DNA of 64,000 nucleotides. It comes from Cylindrospermum sp. NIES-4074. GTDB taxonomy: Bacteria; Cyanobacteriota; Cyanobacteriia; Cyanobacteriales; Nostocaceae. Positions within the stretch are counted from its first letter, which is position 1. The number at the start of each line of letters is the position of its first letter. Shown one piece after another: positions 13,164-42,748 of the stretch. The DNA lies in NCBI GenBank assembly GCA_003994795.1, contig AP018269.1, positions 4,985,677 to 5,049,676 on the forward strand, read 5' to 3'. The translations under genes were made by a program, and so were the position numbers. Below the pieces are notes generated by a model. The model was not told where the DNA came from and searched no databases. It saw only the letters and a list, made by a program, of their open reading frames with translations.

Positions 13164-15437
13164 ATGACAGGAATGGAACCTTGGTTGACACAAGCTGTTA
13201 GTGGTGTAGCAGTTCCCATTTTTCAGTCCCTTTGGGGAAGCGGTGGTAAGGTTCTCGGTGTGTTTGGTAAAACGCTGGATGAAAAAACGAAAAATGTAAT
13301 TTTCAACGCTTCAAAGCAATATGTTGAGAACTATGCAGAAAGGCACGGCATTCTTAAAGTATTGGGAATGCGTGAACCTGTCAAGCTGGAATCTGTCTAT
13401 ACAGCAGTGCAATTTTTAAATGATGATGCTATTCGTAGTTTTGCATCTATTGAGAATTTAGAAAATTTCTATCGTCAATCTAAAAGCCGTAAGTTTCAAA
13501 CTCAAGATAATACTAAACAAGCTGGAATTAAAGTTGCAAATGAGAAACAATATTTGATGGTACTCGGTGGGCCTGGTGCGGGTAAGTCTACATTTTTGCG
13601 GAAGATGGGGCTAGAAGCACTCAAAGGTAAGAAAGGAGAATTTAAACATGGCTGTATTCCTGTTTTTATCGAATTAAAAAGTTTTACATCTAGTGATATC
13701 AATATTGAAAAATTTATTGCTGAAGAGTTTCGCATCTGCGGTTTTCCCTCACCAGAGAAGTTTACAGCAAAAGCCTTAGAACAAGGTAAATTACTGATTC
13801 TGCTGGATGGATTTGATGAAATACCTACTAAAAATTTAACTGAAGCTATTACCCAAATTCAAAATTTTGTAGACACCCATGATAAAAATCGCTTTCTTGC
13901 TTCCTGTCGCACGGCAGCTTATCGCAGTGGTTTCCGGCGTTTTAGTGATGTAGCAATGGCTGATTTTGATGATAGCCAAATTCAGCAATTTATTAATAAC
14001 TGGTTTCGCAAGGAAGAAGATAAACAAACGAAAACAGGCGATAAATGCTGGGAGTTACTACAAAAACCAGAAAATAAAGCTGCGAAAGAGTTAGCACATA
14101 CGCCTTTATTACTAATATTTCTTTGTTTGGTATATGACCGTTCTCAAAACTTTCCAGATAATCGTAGTGTTCTCTACCGGAAAGCATTACGTATATTATT
14201 AGAGGAATGGGCATCAGAAAAGCGAATTTTGCGAGACGAAATTTATCAAGGAATGCATACAGAACTAGAAGAACTGTTATTATCAGAAATTGCTTACACA
14301 GGCTTTGAGTCTAATCGCCTGTTCTTTTCTCAACGTGATATAGTGGGGCAAATCAAAACATTTTTGGCGAGTAACTTGAATGCACCACAACATTTAGATG
14401 GTGAAGCGGTTCTCAATGCCATTGCAATTCAACAAGGGATTTTAGTAGAACGAGCAGAAGATGTATTTTCATTTTCTCATTTGACGCTACAGGAATATTT
14501 AACTGCCCAATATATTGATGATCATCGCCAAGTTGAGAAATTAGTTACTGAACACCTAACAGATGAACGCTGGAAAGAGGTATTTTTGTTAGTTGCTGGG
14601 GTAATGCGGGGTGGTGCAGATGATTTATTGTTGCTGATGGAAAAGGAAGCACAAAAGTATATTAGTACACTGAAGTTAGAAGAGTTGTTCATGGGAAAGG
14701 AAGCGCAAAAATATATTAGTACAGCGAAGTTACAAGGGTTGTTTATGGAAAAGGAGGCGCAAAAATATATTAATGATATTAGTGCACTAAAGTTACAAGA
14801 TTTATTGAACTGGGCAAAACGCATAACAGCAGGATCTCTAGGGGATTTTAAACCTGTGAGTAAACGTGCAGTGGCCATCTCCTACGCCTACGCCATTGCC
14901 TACGCTATTGCCTACGCTAACGTCACTACCAACACCAACACCAACACTAACGTCATTACCAACGCTATCACCAACACCAATGCCATCGCCAACACCAATA
15001 ACAACGCCATCGTCATTGCTGAAGTTATTGCTTATGCCATCGCCAAGGCTAAAGTCAACACTAATATCAACATCAATGCCATCATCAACTCTATCGATGA
15101 AGTTATAGTTTATATTCGTGAACTTCAAAAATTAAAAATTTTCAACAATGTCAACTTTACTGTCCTGATTATTGAATTGGGAACACTAAAAGACAAAATG
15201 GCCTATGGAGCAAAGGTATTGCATCAGGAATTCGGCATCCGTCTCCAACGAACTTTACTCAATGCCTTCCGTCTCCCCCCAGAAATGATCAATTTATCTG
15301 AGGAAGAAGCGCAAGCACTGGGAAATTATCTCTACGCCAACCACCTCATTATCCAGTGCAAACAGGCTGCGGTGCGGGTGTCGCCCACAACCTGGGAAGC
15401 AATAGAGGCGCGGATGTTGTTGGTTCCTGGCAGTTGA
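13164..15437 (+). CDS. NACHT-domain NTPase with repetitive C-terminal region
   Basis: 757 residues. N-terminal about 110 residues are a helical domain. The NACHT module follows, with Walker A GGPGAGKST (135-143), Walker B LLILLDGFDEIP (about 210-221) and an arginine-containing sensor FLASCRTAAYR (about 244-254), then the helical part ending SFSHLTLQEYLTAQYI. Residues about 492-548 hold three copies of a unit like MEKEAQKYIS-x-x-KL. Residues about 571-642 are low-complexity, built from Ala/Ile/Tyr/Thr/Asn (for example TNTNTNTNV) and encoded by hexanucleotide-like repeats. A conserved-looking C-terminal domain (about 645-757) ends the protein. Bacterial NACHT proteins of this class are known as antiphage sensors; that role is inferred here. 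No separate effector domain is recognised. Confidence 0.85.
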   Translation: MTGMEPWLTQAVSGVAVPIFQSLWGSGGKVLGVFGKTLDEKTKNVIFNASKQYVENYAERHGILKVLGMREPVKLESVYTAVQFLNDDAIRSFASIENLENFYRQSKSRKFQTQDNTKQAGIKVANEKQYLMVLGGPGAGKSTFLRKMGLEALKGKKGEFKHGCIPVFIELKSFTSSDINIEKFIAEEFRICGFPSPEKFTAKALEQGKLLILLDGFDEIPTKNLTEAITQIQNFVDTHDKNRFLASCRTAAYRSGFRRFSDVAMADFDDSQIQQFINNWFRKEEDKQTKTGDKCWELLQKPENKAAKELAHTPLLLIFLCLVYDRSQNFPDNRSVLYRKALRILLEEWASEKRILRDEIYQGMHTELEELLLSEIAYTGFESNRLFFSQRDIVGQIKTFLASNLNAPQHLDGEAVLNAIAIQQGILVERAEDVFSFSHLTLQEYLTAQYIDDHRQVEKLVTEHLTDERWKEVFLLVAGVMRGGADDLLLLMEKEAQKYISTLKLEELFMGKEAQKYISTAKLQGLFMEKEAQKYINDISALKLQDLLNWAKRITAGSLGDFKPVSKRAVAISYAYAIAYAIAYANVTTNTNTNTNVITNAITNTNAIANTNNNAIVIAEVIAYAIAKAKVNTNININAIINSIDEVIVYIRELQKLKIFNNVNFTVLIIELGTLKDKMAYGAKVLHQEFGIRLQRTLLNAFRLPPEMINLSEEEAQALGNYLYANHLIIQCKQAAVRVSPTTWEAIEARMLLVPGS
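14638..14811 (+). repeat. Coding tandem repeat, three units, in the NACHT gene
   Basis: Three in-frame units of about 54-60 bases, each starting near ATGGAAAAGGAAGCACAAAA or a variant. They encode MEKEAQKYISTLKLEELF, MGKEAQKYISTAKLQGLF and MEKEAQKYINDISALKLQDL. The last unit is two codons longer. Near-identity between units implies recent duplication. Confidence 0.85.
14878..15090 (+). repeat. Hexanucleotide-type low-complexity coding repeat in the NACHT gene
   Basis: About 210 bases dominated by variants of ACCAACnnCAT and GCCTACGCNATT with a 6-base rhythm. All three plus-strand frames and a minus-strand frame stay open across parts of it, which explains spurious overlapping frames here. 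It encodes the Ala/Tyr/Thr/Asn/Ile-rich linker. Confidence 0.85.
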
Positions 15438-34648: not shown

Positions 34649-34680
34649 ATTACCAATTACCAATTACCAATTACCCATTA
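34649..34680. repeat. TTACCAA heptamer array reaching into a kinase gene end
   Basis: About four tandem copies of TTACCAA. The stop and last codons of the hybrid kinase gene (NNG, stop) lie in it. A related array (TTGGTAA) is at 37093-37140. Confidence 0.85.
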
Positions 34681-36563
34681 TTCTTAACTGCGTTAATAGT
34701 TTGTAATAATTCACAGGCTGTGTAAGGCTTGCATAAAAAAGCTTTAACACCCATATCATAAGCTGCATTTGCTTTGTCACTGGACACCAGACCACTAACA
34801 GCAATAATTTTCACATCTGGATTAATTTTTTGCAGAGTGCGGATAGTGATTATTCCATCCATACACGGCATCACCATATCGGTCAACACCAAAGATATTT
34901 CATCCCGATTTTCTACGAACAAGGCAATAGCCTCAATGCCATCACAGGCAGTAATTGCTCTATAGTTATGACTTTCTAAGGTTGTTTTTGTAATATCGCG
35001 GATAGCAGGTTCATCATCTACAACCAAAATTAATTCTCCATTACCTTGAGGTAAATCTATTTCGTGTTCTTCTATAATTTCTGTTGCATCTTGGGCTGGT
35101 AAATATACTTTAAATCGGCTACCTTTTCCTTCTTCGCTGTAGACGTTGATAAAACCGCCGTGACTCTTAATAATTCCCAGAACAGTAGCAAGTCCTAAGC
35201 CAGTGCCTTTTCCAAGTTCTTTAGTAGTAAAAAATGGCTCAAATATCCGATCTAATATTTCTGGGGATATCCCATTTCCTGTATCAGTCACAGTAATCAC
35301 TACATAAGGGCCAACTTTGGCATCAATATGCATTCTGGCATAATTTTCATCAACTAAGAGATTTTCTCCAGTAATTTTTAAAGTCCCGCCATTAGGCATG
35401 GCATCACGGGCATTAACACATAAATTCATCAGTACTTGATGCAGTTGGGTAGCATCGCCATATGTAGTCCAAAAGTCTTGAGATATTTGGGTAAAGACAT
35501 CAATTGATTTAGGAAAAGTTTCTTTAACAATTTGCTGAATTTCTATGATTAAATGTTTTAATTGCAATAAAGTACGCTCGCCCTCGATCCCACGAGTAAA
35601 AGACAGTACTTGTTTAACTAAATTTGCCCCACGTTTAGCGTTAGTAATTAATATTGGTAGCAGTCGCCGAGAGCGCTCATCATGCATTTGTGATTCTAAA
35701 AGTTGGGCTGTCATCAAAATTGGGGCGAGGACATTATTCAAATCATGGGCGATACCACTAGCTAAAGTACCAATACTCTCCAATCTTTGAGCGCGGAGAA
35801 ATTGGGCTTCTAGTTGTTTCTTTTGGGTAATATCTGTATTCACAACTAATATAGATTGTGCTTTATTGCTAAATTCGCGCACTAATGTCCAACGGCTTTC
35901 AACTATGATTTCTTTGCCACATTTTGTTTTTTGCTGTAATTCTCCTTCCCAGCAGCCCTTGTTCATGAGCATTTTGAGTGCTTCTGGCAATTGAGACAAA
36001 TTTTTCTCTTGCCAAAGCTCTCTGGTCTTTTTAGTAGTAGCTTCTTCTGTTTTCCAGCCATAAAGACGTTCAGCAGCTTTATTCCAAAACAAAATTTGCT
36101 CGTCTAAATCACGTACAAAAATGGCATCGGTGGCCACATCGAGTAAAGCAGCTTGTTCGCGGATTTTTTGTGCTGTTTGTTTGCGCTCTACGGCATAGCG
36201 GATGGAACGCTCTAATAAAGGTGCAGTTAACTGGCTTTTTTCTAGATAATCTGCTGCACCTGCTTTCATAGCCTCTAAATCTATTTCATGATCGCCTTGA
36301 CCAGTGAGTAAAATAATGGGAGAAGCATAACCGTTGGCTACTGCTACGCGCAACAGTTGCAGTCCATTATGCTGGCCCAAACGGTAATCTACCAAATATA
36401 CATCATGCTCCTGGCGTGCGATCGCCTCCGTTGCTGCTGTATAACTATTTACCCACTCCAATTCACAGCCAGCTACCTGAAATTCACCGAACCAGTCACG
36501 GGTTAAAATATAATCATCTTCATCATCATCAACTAAAAGAACTTTAATTGGGCTATTGTTCAT
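34671..36563 (-). CDS. Hybrid histidine kinase, REC-PAS-HisKA-HATPase-REC
   Basis: 630 residues. Receiver 1 (about 5-125, phospho-Asp in DVYLVDYRLGQ), PAS (about 135-255), phosphoacceptor helix with ASGIAHDLNNVLAPILM, ATPase with NLCVNARDAMP, TDTGNGIS and GKGTGLGLATVLGIIKSHGG, and receiver 2 (about 505-625, VLTDMVMPCMDG). From the PAS domain onward it is a clear paralogue of the 937-residue kinase at 39935-42748. No membrane segment, so cytoplasmic. It follows the Rcp1-like receiver gene by 16 bases. Confidence 0.92.
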   Translation of the reverse strand: MNNSPIKVLLVDDDEDDYILTRDWFGEFQVAGCELEWVNSYTAATEAIARQEHDVYLVDYRLGQHNGLQLLRVAVANGYASPIILLTGQGDHEIDLEAMKAGAADYLEKSQLTAPLLERSIRYAVERKQTAQKIREQAALLDVATDAIFVRDLDEQILFWNKAAERLYGWKTEEATTKKTRELWQEKNLSQLPEALKMLMNKGCWEGELQQKTKCGKEIIVESRWTLVREFSNKAQSILVVNTDITQKKQLEAQFLRAQRLESIGTLASGIAHDLNNVLAPILMTAQLLESQMHDERSRRLLPILITNAKRGANLVKQVLSFTRGIEGERTLLQLKHLIIEIQQIVKETFPKSIDVFTQISQDFWTTYGDATQLHQVLMNLCVNARDAMPNGGTLKITGENLLVDENYARMHIDAKVGPYVVITVTDTGNGISPEILDRIFEPFFTTKELGKGTGLGLATVLGIIKSHGGFINVYSEEGKGSRFKVYLPAQDATEIIEEHEIDLPQGNGELILVVDDEPAIRDITKTTLESHNYRAITACDGIEAIALFVENRDEISLVLTDMVMPCMDGIITIRTLQKINPDVKIIAVSGLVSSDKANAAYDMGVKAFLCKPYTACELLQTINAVKNNG

Positions 36564-36579
36564 TATTGCCTCCCACTGC

Positions 36580-37026
36580 TTATAGGGGCAGTTCTACAAT
36601 TTCAAACCAGTATTTTCCTAGAGTCTTCATTACCTCAACTAAAGAAGCAAAATTTGCAGGTTTAATAATGAAGGAGTTTGCGCCCAGATCATAAGTATTA
36701 TATATATCTTCCTCGGCTTTAGATGTTGTCAATACTACTACAGGAATCCGCCGTAATTTTGGGTCAGATTTAATCTCCTTAAGTGCTTCAACACCATCTT
36801 TTTTAGGCATATTCAAATCTAGCAAAATCAAACCCGGATGGGTGGCAATGCTGCTGTCGGCGTATTGACCACGATGACACAGATAATCCATCAAATCCTC
36901 ACCATTTCTGACAATATGTAGTTCAATTGGTAATTGACTTTCTATCAAAGCTTCATGAACTAACAGGCTGTCATCTTCATCATCATCAGCCATTAATATT
37001 GTAATGACTGTTTGCCGACCCTTCAC
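36580..37026 (-). CDS. Rcp1-like single-domain response regulator
   Basis: 148 residues, one receiver domain (ILMADDDEDDSLLVHEA, phospho-Asp in GLILLDLNMPKKDG, VVVLTTSKAEEDI, FIIKPANF). The long insertions and the DDDEDD acidic start match the small receivers paired with phytochrome-type kinases (Cph1-Rcp1). The gene lies between the candidate cyanobacteriochrome kinase and the REC-PAS hybrid kinase on the same strand, so it is the likely partner of the former. Confidence 0.9.
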   Translation of the reverse strand: MKGRQTVITILMADDDEDDSLLVHEALIESQLPIELHIVRNGEDLMDYLCHRGQYADSSIATHPGLILLDLNMPKKDGVEALKEIKSDPKLRRIPVVVLTTSKAEEDIYNTYDLGANSFIIKPANFASLVEVMKTLGKYWFEIVELPL

Positions 37027-37300: not shown

Positions 37301-39916
37301 TCAAGAATGGGAATTAATTGGCAGTGTGATGATAAATTTTGCTCCTTGTCCTGGGTTACTTTGCGCTGTAATACTTCCGTGATGGCGTTCAGTAATTTTC
37401 CGGCAAATAGCTAAACCAATGCCAGTACCTTCGTATTCACTGCGACTATGTAGACGTTGAAAAACATTGAAAATCCGATCAAGATATTTTTCGGCAAAAC
37501 CAATACCATTATCTTCAACTATGATTTGACAAAGTTCCGCGCCGACTGTAACTTTATCTAAGTTATTGTTTAAAAATTGACTATATATTTTGACAATAGG
37601 TACTTCTTGTTGGCGGTGAAATTTGAGAGCGTTACCAATTAAGTTTTGCAATAATTGGCGCATTTGTAGGGGATCAGCTTGAATAGTGGGTAATTCCCCT
37701 ACTTCTACTCGTCCTCCAGTCTGCTGGATACGTATTTCTAAATCAGATAATACTTCTTGGGTAATTTGTTTGAGATTTACTGATACAAAAGGGAGTGCCC
37801 TAGTAGTCACTCGCGAAAGTGCTAATAAGTCTTCAATTAAAGTCTGCATTCTCAGGGCAGCATTTTGCATCCGTTCCAAATAGTCTTGTCCCTGTTCATT
37901 TAATGATTCACCACAACTAGCTTTGATTCTCTCACCAAAGGTCTTAATTTTACGCAATGGCTCTTGTAAATCATGAGAGGCAATAAAAGCAAATTGTTGC
38001 AATTCTTCGTTGGAACGGGTGAGTTCTTGCCGCTGATTAGTTTCTTGTTCTAAAATTAAACTCTGAGCTAAGGCAATGCCGATTTGATCTGCCAATTGTC
38101 GCAAGAGTTCAATTTCCCAGTTTGTCCACTGACGGGGATGCAGACATTGATGGGCAATTAACAAACCCCAAAGTTGATTTTTGAGGAAAATTGGGACAAC
38201 AAGGTTGGCTTTGACACTAAATTTTTGTAGTAATTCCAAATGGCAAGGATGGATTTGTATTTGCTCGATATCAGTAATGGTACTAATTCGCCCTTGGCGG
38301 AATTTGTGAATATAATCTTTTTCTAGGCAAGGGTCAACAATTTTCTCCCCTAAGACTATGGGTAAACCGGGAACTACTGCTTCTTTCACCGCTAGTAAAG
38401 AATCATTTGCTTGTAGCTGCAAGATTAATACTCGGTCTGCTTGCAGTAATTTTTGGACTTCGGTGACGCTAGCTTGCAGTATTTCATCGATTTGTAGAGA
38501 CTGACGAATTTTCAGAGTGACATCAGCGAATAATTGCGATCGCAAATTTTGCCGCAATAATTCTGCTTGAGCGCATTTGCGATCGCTCATATCCATCATC
38601 GCCCTAATCATCCGCACAGGCTTACCTGTATTGTCATGGACAACATAACCGCGATCAAAAATAAAGGCATAACTACCATCACTACGCAAAAAGCGGTATT
38701 CATTCGACCAAAATTGTTGCCCACTATCAATCACAGCCCCTACCTCAGCCGTAATTCTTTGGCGATCGTCTGGATGTATGCGATCGCGCCACCAACTTAT
38801 ATTAGAATTTACCTGCTCTGTTGTGTAACCAAAAAGCGTCTGTACAGCTTGATTCCACCACACCTGATTAGTTAACAAATCCCAATCCCATAAAACATCA
38901 TTAGTCGCACTGACAGCCAATTGCCAACGTTCTTCACTTTTTTTTAGCGCTTCTTCTACCCGTTGACGCTCAATCGTTGTTGCTAGCACATTGGCAACAG
39001 CTTGCAGAAAATAAATATCATCTCTAGTAAAAGTACGTTGTTTACTGGTGTGTACCCCTAAAACACCAAAAGGACGCTCCTTACCATGAATAACCACACT
39101 CATCCCACTGACAACTTGGCTGGAGTTATGAACAATCAACGGCTCTTGGGAAACTAAGGTATAGCCAGTTGCCGAATGCATAACCGTGCTAACAATTACC
39201 TGTCCCACCGCTCCCTGTTCCCACCCAACCCCCGCCCGTAGTAGTAATTTATTACCATCTGCCAGCAGTTCTAAAACCTTGCAAGACTCAACCTTCAGAC
39301 ATTGGGCTACAAGGGTAACACTCTTGTTCATCAGCGTAGTCAAGTCTGTCCCAGCTAAGGCAATTTGACTAAGTTCTGCCACAATTGCCTGTTGATTGGC
39401 ATGAACTTCCAGCGCTGCTTCCGCTTGCTTGCGCTTGGTAATATCCATGTCTACGGCATACATTTGCACAGACACCCCAGATGAGTTGTGTAAGACTACC
39501 CCCTTACTCGCTAACCAGCGAATGCTACCATCAGGTAAAACAACTCGAAACTCAATATCATATTCTACTCCGTCCCCAATAGCCTGTTGATGAGAGCGCT
39601 TGACAAAATCACGATCTTGGGGATGAATGCAGTTTAAAAAAGCTTCGTAGGTATCGCTAAAACTGCCTTTCTCCAAACCAAACAGCGTTTCCAGATTATC
39701 CGACTCAGTAATTTTGTTACTCTGAAGATCCCAGTTCCAGATACCCAGACGAGCTGCATCTAATGCCATTCTCAGTTGTGCTTCCTGTAGTTGCACCTGC
39801 TCCGTTTGTTCTGGCAATTCTTTAGTTATTGGGCATTGCTCATTGCTCATTGGTTTTTGACTTTTTATCGAAACAATCGGGGTATAAATCCCCATTACAA
39901 AAATTGCCCCCAGCAA
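37301..39916 (-). CDS. PAS-GAF-PAS-GAF sensor histidine kinase, candidate cyanobacteriochrome
   Basis: 871 residues as read from 39916; translation may really begin at the Met at residue 23 (MSNEQCPITK), because the region before it is repeat-like. PAS 1 (about 45-165), GAF 1 (about 175-318), PAS 2 (about 328-450), GAF 2 (about 458-622), then HisKA with ASHDLQEPLRKIKTFGERI (His648) and an ATPase domain (NLIGNALKFHR, EDNGIGFAEKY, GTGIGLAICRKI). GAF 2 has the phytochrome-like Cys-His (HPCHLELL, Cys558) and an upstream DPCL cysteine (Cys530), 28 residues apart as in DXCF-type dual-cysteine cyanobacteriochromes. A bilin photoreceptor is inferred. No receiver is fused; the Rcp1-like gene follows. 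Confidence 0.88.
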   Translation of the reverse strand: MLGAIFVMGIYTPIVSIKSQKPMSNEQCPITKELPEQTEQVQLQEAQLRMALDAARLGIWNWDLQSNKITESDNLETLFGLEKGSFSDTYEAFLNCIHPQDRDFVKRSHQQAIGDGVEYDIEFRVVLPDGSIRWLASKGVVLHNSSGVSVQMYAVDMDITKRKQAEAALEVHANQQAIVAELSQIALAGTDLTTLMNKSVTLVAQCLKVESCKVLELLADGNKLLLRAGVGWEQGAVGQVIVSTVMHSATGYTLVSQEPLIVHNSSQVVSGMSVVIHGKERPFGVLGVHTSKQRTFTRDDIYFLQAVANVLATTIERQRVEEALKKSEERWQLAVSATNDVLWDWDLLTNQVWWNQAVQTLFGYTTEQVNSNISWWRDRIHPDDRQRITAEVGAVIDSGQQFWSNEYRFLRSDGSYAFIFDRGYVVHDNTGKPVRMIRAMMDMSDRKCAQAELLRQNLRSQLFADVTLKIRQSLQIDEILQASVTEVQKLLQADRVLILQLQANDSLLAVKEAVVPGLPIVLGEKIVDPCLEKDYIHKFRQGRISTITDIEQIQIHPCHLELLQKFSVKANLVVPIFLKNQLWGLLIAHQCLHPRQWTNWEIELLRQLADQIGIALAQSLILEQETNQRQELTRSNEELQQFAFIASHDLQEPLRKIKTFGERIKASCGESLNEQGQDYLERMQNAALRMQTLIEDLLALSRVTTRALPFVSVNLKQITQEVLSDLEIRIQQTGGRVEVGELPTIQADPLQMRQLLQNLIGNALKFHRQQEVPIVKIYSQFLNNNLDKVTVGAELCQIIVEDNGIGFAEKYLDRIFNVFQRLHSRSEYEGTGIGLAICRKITERHHGSITAQSNPGQGAKFIITLPINSHS

Positions 39917-39934: not shown

Positions 39935-42748
39935 TTAATTTTTAATTGCTTGTAGGGCTTGCAATAATTCCTGTGCTGTGAATGGTTTGGGCAAGAAAGT
40001 TGTATGTTTGGATGCTTTATTCACAGGTATTTGTTCGCTTCTTGCCAATCCACTGACAGCAATAATTCCCAATAGCGGATTGATTTTTTGTAATGTGCGA
40101 ATAGTAGCAGAGCCATCCATATTAGGCATCATCATGTCAACAATTGCCGCACTAATTTTGTCTTGATTTTGGGCATATAATGCTACTGCTTTGATGCCAT
40201 CACTAGCGGTAATTACTCGATAATTATAGTTTTCTAATGAAGTTGTGGTAATTTCCCGAATGGCTGCTTCATCATCCACAACCAAAATCCATTCGCCATT
40301 ACCTTGAGGAATTTCTGTGTTTTCTAAGAACTGGGTAGGAGCTGTATTCACAGCTGGCAAATAAACCTGAAATGTTGTGCCTTTATCTATGTAACTAGAC
40401 ACAGTAATAAAACCACCATGCCCTTTAATAATTCCCATGACTGTTGACAGCCCCAGTCCTGTACCTTTACCAAATTCTTTGGTTGTAAAAAATGGTTCAA
40501 ATATTCTATCTAATATGCTACCTTTAATGCCAAATCCTGTATCAGTAACTTTCATAACGATGTAAGACCCAACTTGTGCGTCTAGATGCATTTTGGCATA
40601 GTTTTCATCAATAAAAATATTCTCAGCAGAGATTGCTAAATTTCCGCCTTTAGGCATAGCATCACGAGCATTAAGACATAAATTAATCAATACTTGATGT
40701 AATTGGGTAGTATCACCACAAACTGGTAATAAATCTTGCTGAATATTTGTATATATATTAATTGATTTAGGGAAAGTTTGTTCGACGATTTGCTGCATTT
40801 CTAAAATCAGGTGTTTTACCTGAACCACCGTCCGCTCGCCTTCAATTCCCCTAGCAAAAGATAGCACTTGTTTAACTAAATTAGCACCACGTTTAGAGTT
40901 ACTTTCTATGATCGATAGTATTTGGTGAATATGCTGTCCAGTAGTTTTATTTTTCAATAGTTGTACTGACATCAAAATTGGTGACAACACATTATTTAAA
41001 TCATGAGCAATGCCACTGGCAAGAGTACCAATGCTCTCCATTCTTTGAGCGCGTAAAAATTGCTTTTCTAATAGTTTTTTCTGGGTGATATCAGTGTCAA
41101 CAATCAAGATAGATTTGGCTTGAGAATGCTCATCATATACAAGCGTCCAGCGACTTTCTACGATTAGCTCTGAGCCTGATTTTCTGGTTTTCTGTAACTC
41201 ACCTTGCCAAGAGCCATGTGTTAATACTGTTTGATAAATTTCTTGGTGTTGCAGCAGAGGTTCATTATACAAAAGCTGACTAGCATTTTTGCCGATTGCT
41301 TCTGCTGTCTGCCAGCCGTAAAGTTGCTCGGCGCTTTTGTTCCACAATAAAATTTTGTTGTCTAAATCTTGCACCACAATCGCATCTGTGGCTACATCTA
41401 GTAGTGCTGCTTGCTCACGGATTTTTTGTTCTACCTGTTTGCGGGTGGTGATATCCTCAAAAATGTACAAGCGCCCAAAATATTTATCATCATGATCTCG
41501 AATTTGGGTAGAGAACCGCCGAATGATGCGCCCATCAGTAAAGCGAATTTCGTCTTCGACAACGCTGCGGTTTTCTTCACTTTGCAAAGGTTGGCAAGAT
41601 GCAGCAAAGGCGGGAATATCTACTATAAATTTGAGACAGTCAGGAATGATATCATTATTTTTTAATTCCTGGCGTTCCATACGCTCTTTGAGAGATTCAA
41701 TTCCCCAAATTTCACAAAAGCGATCATTAAAATATAGAATATTATCATTGCGGTTATCGACAACATAAAACGCTAGCGGAGAAACACTATTCATGGAGCG
41801 TAAAAGTGCTTCTTTCCAGCGTAATTCTTCTTGTGCTTGCTGACGTTCCGTAATGTCTTCTACGACATAGGCAAATTGCTGACGGCTACCAGAATTTTGG
41901 GCAATTGCTGAGACTGTTGCTGATAGCCAGTGGCGATTTTGGGGCGTTTCATGAGCATATTCAAACCTGACGGGTGATTGGGTGCGTTCGGCTTGACGAT
42001 AGTGATGAATCCATTGGTTTAAATGGCTGTCTGTTCCACCCATATCCCGCGCTAGGCGATTTTGCATCGCTTCTGGGGTGAGTCCAACAAATTTAGCCGT
42101 GGCGGGGTTATCAGAAATATGCAGGATGTCGTTATCTACCAACTCCACAATTCCCATCATCATCGGCGCACTCTCGAAGAAGCTGTGGAGGATAGATTCA
42201 CTTTGGCGTTGTGCTTCTTGTGCCTGTTTGTACTCTGCTTTAATGCTGGCTAGTTCTGCTAAATTCCGCCGGATTTCCAGTTGTCTAAGTATGAGACGGC
42301 TAATAGATTGCAGTGCTGCTAACTGTTTGGCGTTAAGTTGGCCAGGGATACGATCTAATACACAGAGAGTGCCGATCGCCTCCCCTCCTGGTACTAACAA
42401 GGGTATTCCTGCATAGAATCTGACAAATGGCTCTGCGGTAACTACTGCTTCTGTGGCAAACTGTGGATCTGCTAAAGTATCAGGAATAATCAATACATCG
42501 CTTTGCTGAATACACAGCGGACAGAAGCCAATATCTATAGGCATTTCCTGAACATCCAACCCCACCTTGGCTTTGAACCACTGACGTTTGGCATCTATCA
42601 GATTAATTAAGGCGATCGGTGTGTCACAAATCTGCGCGGCTAACGACACTAAATCGTCGAATGCTTGTTCTGGTGCAGTATCAAGAATTTGGTACTGATA
42701 GAGAACCTCAAGCCTTCTTGCTTCATTGTTACACACTGTAGATGTCAT
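39935..42748 (-). CDS. Hybrid histidine kinase, GAF-PAS-PAS-PAS-HisKA-HATPase-REC
   Basis: 937 residues. The N-terminal GAF (about 10-165) begins RRLEVLYQYQILDTAPEQAF and holds the GFCPLCIQQ motif common to this GAF class, not a bilin site. Three PAS domains follow (about 185-300, 310-440, 445-560), then ASGIAHDLNNVLSPILMSVQ, an ATPase domain (NLCLNARDAMP, GKGTGLGLSTVMGIIKGHGG) and a C-terminal receiver (AAIVDMMMPNMDG). It is the first gene of the four-gene minus-strand run; the cyanobacteriochrome-like kinase starts 18 bases later. Its last 500 residues are paralogous to 34671-36563. Confidence 0.92.
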   Translation of the reverse strand: MTSTVCNNEARRLEVLYQYQILDTAPEQAFDDLVSLAAQICDTPIALINLIDAKRQWFKAKVGLDVQEMPIDIGFCPLCIQQSDVLIIPDTLADPQFATEAVVTAEPFVRFYAGIPLLVPGGEAIGTLCVLDRIPGQLNAKQLAALQSISRLILRQLEIRRNLAELASIKAEYKQAQEAQRQSESILHSFFESAPMMMGIVELVDNDILHISDNPATAKFVGLTPEAMQNRLARDMGGTDSHLNQWIHHYRQAERTQSPVRFEYAHETPQNRHWLSATVSAIAQNSGSRQQFAYVVEDITERQQAQEELRWKEALLRSMNSVSPLAFYVVDNRNDNILYFNDRFCEIWGIESLKERMERQELKNNDIIPDCLKFIVDIPAFAASCQPLQSEENRSVVEDEIRFTDGRIIRRFSTQIRDHDDKYFGRLYIFEDITTRKQVEQKIREQAALLDVATDAIVVQDLDNKILLWNKSAEQLYGWQTAEAIGKNASQLLYNEPLLQHQEIYQTVLTHGSWQGELQKTRKSGSELIVESRWTLVYDEHSQAKSILIVDTDITQKKLLEKQFLRAQRMESIGTLASGIAHDLNNVLSPILMSVQLLKNKTTGQHIHQILSIIESNSKRGANLVKQVLSFARGIEGERTVVQVKHLILEMQQIVEQTFPKSINIYTNIQQDLLPVCGDTTQLHQVLINLCLNARDAMPKGGNLAISAENIFIDENYAKMHLDAQVGSYIVMKVTDTGFGIKGSILDRIFEPFFTTKEFGKGTGLGLSTVMGIIKGHGGFITVSSYIDKGTTFQVYLPAVNTAPTQFLENTEIPQGNGEWILVVDDEAAIREITTTSLENYNYRVITASDGIKAVALYAQNQDKISAAIVDMMMPNMDGSATIRTLQKINPLLGIIAVSGLARSEQIPVNKASKHTTFLPKPFTAQELLQALQAIKN

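Follow-up and report, generated by a model that had tools for sequence, protein, structure and literature searches.

Cyanobacteriochromes of the DXCF type use two cysteines of a GAF domain: the canonical cysteine holds the bilin, and a second cysteine bonds to its C10 atom, which blue-shifts the dark state until light frees this bond; typical members also convert phycocyanobilin to phycoviolobilin (as described in the accessible parts of PMC11284453, PMC4067208, and PMC6955287). Here, we analyze a sensor kinase of Cylindrospermum sp. NIES-4074 that is encoded in a stretch of 64,000 nucleotides (contig AP018269.1 of assembly GCA_003994795.1, positions 4,985,677 to 5,049,676), referred to below as the window, in whose numbering the coordinates are given. 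As judged from its sequence, this protein is very probably a DXCF-type cyanobacteriochrome kinase in which the motif takes the form DXCL; the class is already known and widespread in cyanobacteria.

A dual-cysteine GAF domain in a sensor kinase

The site in question is located in GAF 2, the second GAF domain of the kinase. Conservation was assessed in 172 distinct domains, including GAF 2 itself and counting identical domains once, that came from 16 named loci, the 111 best-scoring matches (among them the window and its own-genome paralogue L018), the GAF domains of the same genome, and two further match sets. Family counts refer to the 148 other domains that share 50% or more identity with GAF 2 (the relatives); 23 domains below this value were excluded, and a cysteine occupies the second position in 12 of them and the canonical position in 18.

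37301..39916, minus strand: sensor kinase, PAS-GAF1-PAS-GAF2-HisKA-HATPase_c by Pfam, 871 codons from TTG
38069..38491, minus strand: GAF 2, cyanobacteriochrome-type, residues 476-616 (Pfam, PDB sequence searches, fold comparison)
38327..38329, minus strand: Cys530, second cysteine, in DPCL (VDPCLEK) at the DXCF position; Cys in 144 of 148 relatives
38240..38245, minus strand: Cys558-His559, canonical bilin attachment position, in HPCHLELL; Cys558 (codon 38245-38243) in 142 of 148 relatives
38324..38326, minus strand: Leu531 (CTA), a position taken in the 148 relatives by Phe (136), Leu (11), or Val (1)
38300..38302, minus strand: Phe539 (TTC), where all 148 relatives have Tyr

A preliminary description of this DNA had proposed a dual-cysteine site in GAF 2, and its particulars hold. 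Cys558 and Cys530 are both found, 28 residues apart, as in TePixJ, whose DPCF and CHL align without gaps with DPCL and CHL of GAF 2 in the search of solved structures. The flanking stretches VKANLVVPI and LWGLLIAHQC are present in the translation, and the leucine that replaces the DXCF phenylalanine is real. GAF 2 is of the cyanobacteriochrome type and has a canonical cysteine followed by histidine as well as the pair D528-C530, with Cys530 placed 28 residues before the canonical cysteine; the phenylalanine that follows the second cysteine in the strict DXCF motif is replaced by Leu531, a variant that the tree places inside the lineage. The check that the preliminary description had proposed, namely whether GAF 2 falls among GAF domains that do not bind bilin, came out in its favor: sequence searches, trees, and fold comparison all lead to bilin-binding domains, and the structure model of GAF 2 has a mean pLDDT of 88.0. 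By sequence, tree, and predicted fold, GAF 2 is a bilin-type GAF domain, and we estimate a probability of about 0.85 for this domain type with a predicted covalently bound bilin. By analogy with characterized sensors, it is also rather probable that Cys530 would produce a blue-absorbing dark state.

Both cysteines are present in 141 of the 148 relatives, whereas three have only the second (L159, L056, L104), one only the canonical (L193), and three neither (L011, L016, L114). In a 121-row alignment, cysteine exceeds 10% of rows only in columns 530, 558, and 591. Because of this retention and the scarcity of other cysteine columns, the pair is beyond chance at the sequence level. The substitutions at lost sites include C558V in L159, which is of the same genus, C558W in L056 and aff. 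Roholtiella L007, and C530W in L193. A quick tree of 87 rows, computed with these columns removed, requires at least four changes for each cysteine, and a test for their joint loss had two supported independent pairs, too few for significance.

GAF domains are common, with 77 matches in this genome, and many bind no bilin. It might accordingly be supposed that GAF 2 is a GAF domain of the common kind, with some other small molecule as its ligand, and owes its cysteines to descent or chance. This is highly improbable, given that the conservation of the cysteines agrees with the searches, trees, and fold comparison in pointing to bilin-binding domains, and that the other GAF domain of the same protein provides a contrast.

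38966..39337, minus strand: GAF 1, residues 194-317, not cyanobacteriochrome-like (Pfam, PDB search, own-genome GAF search)

GAF 1 was considered as a second bilin site and rejected: its sole clear PDB match is 3e0y (E 1.9e-7), the cyanobacteriochrome 6uv8 is matched only at E 0.096, and the domain is outside the 32 matches of the own-genome search for other GAF domains. As nine of the 22 own-genome domains above the chosen cut carry both cysteines, a two-cysteine GAF domain is an otherwise ordinary find for a filamentous cyanobacterium. Two own-genome GAF domains with two cysteines depart from DXCF, namely, L024 (C1:1232034-1232519; DPCL, CY) and L020 (C1:1226779-1227267; DPCI, CH), and two further domains have a cysteine at the second but none at the canonical position: L038 (C1:3385945-3386433; DYCF, PH) and L027 (C1:2736680-2737165; NRCC, RH).

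Kinship with characterized sensors

Five solved references, TePixJ, RcaE, 6oap, 5zoh, and miRFP670nano, were included in the trees. RcaE, and not TePixJ, is the nearest of these to the family: in a carefully built 54-row tree, the family plus RcaE is supported at 100/94, with TePixJ as the next neighbor at 97/78, and another quick tree gives a support of 93 for the family plus RcaE. RcaE lies inside the family in the careful tree, from which CcaS is absent; a topology that keeps the family separate from RcaE could not be rejected (p-AU 0.474).

The individual systems resemble GAF 2 in different respects. The GAF domain of RcaE (PDB 7ckv, 8k9o), whose solved states carry the names Pr and Pg in the structure titles, has valine at the second-cysteine position and leucine after the canonical cysteine, whereas GAF 2 has Cys530 and His559. 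The GAF domain of TePixJ (PDB 4glq, 4fof, 3vv4) shares motif and spacing with GAF 2 but has Phe, Leu, and Tyr in place of Leu531, Phe566, and Phe539, respectively, and TePixJ is named a methyl-accepting chemotaxis protein, whereas the window's protein is a kinase. The dual-sensor histidine kinase 6oap, which we take to be PPHK, is the top match of the family profile and, as here, has its GAF domain in a histidine kinase, but a tyrosine replaces the second cysteine. Insert-Cys cyanobacteriochromes such as Mbr3854g4 have, like GAF 2, leucine at the position of the DXCF phenylalanine, which the accessible part of PMC5240096 judges not to be color-setting; their second cysteine is in an insert loop, whereas that of GAF 2 is within the motif. 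The tryptophan of the XRG group, as defined in the accessible part of PMC11284453, is replaced by Ile526 in GAF 2 and by isoleucine in 130 of the 141 dual-cysteine relatives, and Cys530 is present. Finally, the alignment assigns Ala509 (beta2), Leu531, and Phe566 to the trapped-twist positions, with the beta2 column assigned by counting and Ala509 unsure. The teal-DXCF group has trapped-twist phenylalanines in beta2 and in helix alpha4 (according to the accessible part of PMC5240096), to which an alanine at beta2, if the counted column is right, would be ill suited.

Two unusual pocket residues

The CTA codon of Leu531 is two steps from any phenylalanine codon, so this residue is not explained by a single misread base; the TTC codon of Phe539 is one step from TAC. 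Leucine at position 531 occurs together with both cysteines in eight of the 11 relatives that have it (L069 and five EPCL kin, L083, and L129). The quick tree of 87 rows, which leaves out the columns concerned, requires at least six changes at position 531 and one at position 539; the former thus changed repeatedly within the family, and the Tyr-to-Phe replacement at the latter is, as far as sampled, private to the window's protein. Counting from Asp291, position 539 corresponds to Tyr302 of AnPixJg2, a residue that belongs to the quantum part of nuclear magnetic resonance (NMR) calculations in the accessible part of PMC7727823; a literature search for papers that link Tyr302, propionate, and AnPixJ returned none.

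Signs of decay were sought in 66 columns, those with a conservation of 90% or more among the 141 dual-cysteine relatives. GAF 2 departs at three of them (T482A, F531L, Y539F), as compared to a median of two in the dual-cysteine relatives, 49 of which depart at three or more. Since its count is so close to this median, GAF 2 has the appearance of a functional domain whose pocket contains two unusual residues, which could alter its color.

It is nevertheless conceivable that GAF 2 is losing its bilin and that the kinase is now independent of light, as may hold for the cysteine-lacking relatives. Seven of the 148 relatives, including L159 of the same genus, are devoid of one or both cysteines, and all seven (L159, L056, L104, L011, L016, L114, L193) have the downstream regulator gene described below. 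However, GAF 2 retains both cysteines and His559, and its three departures contrast with the 2 to 9 (mean, 4.86) seen in the seven relatives besides the two cysteines; the contrast is modest, as two of the seven depart at just two columns. We consider this explanation improbable.

A covalently bound bilin could also give rise to another photocycle. If the bond to Cys530 were weak or absent, or if the bilin were not isomerized, GAF 2 would be a green-to-red instead of a blue-light sensor; such a sensor would share with our explanation the bilin on Cys558 and differ in the photocycle. Leu531 and Phe539 are both within the segment that bears the second cysteine, the latter at the position of invariant tyrosine just discussed, and RcaE, the nearest solved reference, is devoid of the second cysteine and has the Pr and Pg states. 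On the other hand, Cys530 itself is retained in GAF 2, and the presence of Leu531 together with both cysteines in the eight relatives, as well as in L024, suggests that this leucine is tolerated. A green-to-red sensor is an unlikely alternative to the blue dark state that we favor.

The kinase gene

The preliminary description had given the extent of the gene correctly: an open frame of 871 codons runs exactly from 39916 to 37301, and the coding strand is the minus strand. A plus-strand reading was rejected, since frame 1 is rich in stops and the longest listed plus-strand frame inside comprises 102 amino acids. The C-terminal part has the following kinase domains, the second of which contains the motifs that are presumably the N, G1, F, and G2 boxes.

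37805..38002, minus strand: HisKA domain (Pfam), SHDLQEPL with the likely phospho-accepting His648
37316..37675, minus strand: HATPase_c domain (Pfam)

Among the matches listed in an NCBIfam search with the kinase, a PAS-box domain model alone was above its cut-off. The TTG start at 39916 is probably too early, and 39850 or a later position appears likelier. Across the 16 named loci, 13 tblastn matches begin at kinase residues 26 to 44, that of L010 at residue 6, and those of L013 and L015 only at residue 316, and the ATG at codon 23 (39850) is inside a short ATGAGCA repeat, so several start codons are conceivable. The two tandem ATGAGCA units at 39837-39850 blur the start codon, and a terminator-like hairpin is found near the 5' end of the gene at 39878-39894. 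Promoter and terminator scans gave a signal no higher than that of shuffled sequence.

Neighboring genes and bilin supply

36580..37026, minus strand: Rcp-type single-domain response regulator, 148 amino acids, GTG start; best solved match RcpA (1k68, E 5e-36)
34671..36563, minus strand: REC-PAS-HisKA-HATPase-REC hybrid kinase, third member of the conserved gene set (domain search, gene order)
39935..42748, minus strand: GAF-PAS-HisKA-HATPase-REC hybrid kinase, directly upstream of the kinase (domain search)

Rcp1 and its kin are also among the best solved matches of the regulator. In 14 of the 16 named loci, all but L013 and L015, the genes follow the order kinase, regulator, hybrid kinase. 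L013 and L015 match only the N-terminal part of the upstream hybrid kinase, just before the kinase, and three of the 16 (L006, L011 partly, and L016) have a separate match to it at some distance upstream of the kinase. The regulator was counted as present when a match of more than 45% identity was located 0.8 to 1.3 kb downstream of the kinase, which is the case for 45 of the 51 testable rows of at least 70% identity, the window included (10 more were too short). One Fe_bilin_red match and two heme oxygenase matches were found in the genome, so a bilin is very likely made in this organism, presumably phycocyanobilin.

At some distance from these genes, 13164-15437 on the plus strand encodes a NACHT protein that ends in an NCH2 domain and may be of the bacterial NACHT defense type; two further frames follow close downstream on the same strand.

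Proposed mechanism

Cys558 most likely attaches phycocyanobilin to GAF 2, and Cys530, to judge from TePixJ and Tlr0924, would most likely bond in darkness to the C10 atom of the bilin and cause blue absorption. In blue light, the D ring would turn and the second bond open, shifting absorption to green, orange, or beyond, with a photoproduct color that would depend on whether the bilin is isomerized to phycoviolobilin. The change in shape may be relayed via a helix to the kinase part; the protein would then pass phosphate to the Rcp-type regulator of the adjacent gene and perhaps also feed the hybrid kinase after it. Chromophore binding, the colors, whether light raises or lowers kinase activity, and the pairing with the regulator are all inferred.

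Several observations weigh against this interpretation. Leu531 is unlike the residue of 136 relatives and Phe539 unlike that of all 148. L159, from one of the three genomes of the same genus that were sampled, has valine at the canonical position, which implies that the cysteine trait is not fixed even near by. The regulator is present in just 44 of the 83 testable rows of 50 to 70% identity (5 were too short). The Fe_bilin_red gene is known at the family level, and its assignment to PcyA would be an extrapolation from there. Furthermore, the relatives were chosen by score, and the sample leans to close ones.

Significance for the family

What is new here is only the window's member, its DXCL motif together with Phe539, and the list of cysteine-losing relatives. 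Searches by title and start of abstract returned no paper on a DXCL motif; subscription literature was thinly covered, and we do not claim that the motif is unreported. A whole-word search, which would miss papers using only the plural, found none that joins cyanobacteriochrome with DXCI, DXCL, or DPCL, and the papers listed for loss of the canonical cysteine were unrelated by title. More speculatively, and with considerable doubt, the family may represent a natural series in which an otherwise intact kinase and its Rcp partner continue to function while pigment sites are retuned or lost (second cysteine only, canonical only, or neither); the window's protein would be one step in it, and Leu531 and Phe539, the latter unique so far, would confer a color or a bond stability that DXCF sensors have not shown. 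As a well-placed natural variant, this protein lends itself to the question of how color and the strength of the reversible bond depend on the residues next to the second cysteine, and the relatives without a cysteine but with the kinase and regulator genes provide a ready test of whether such sensors can work without a covalent pigment.
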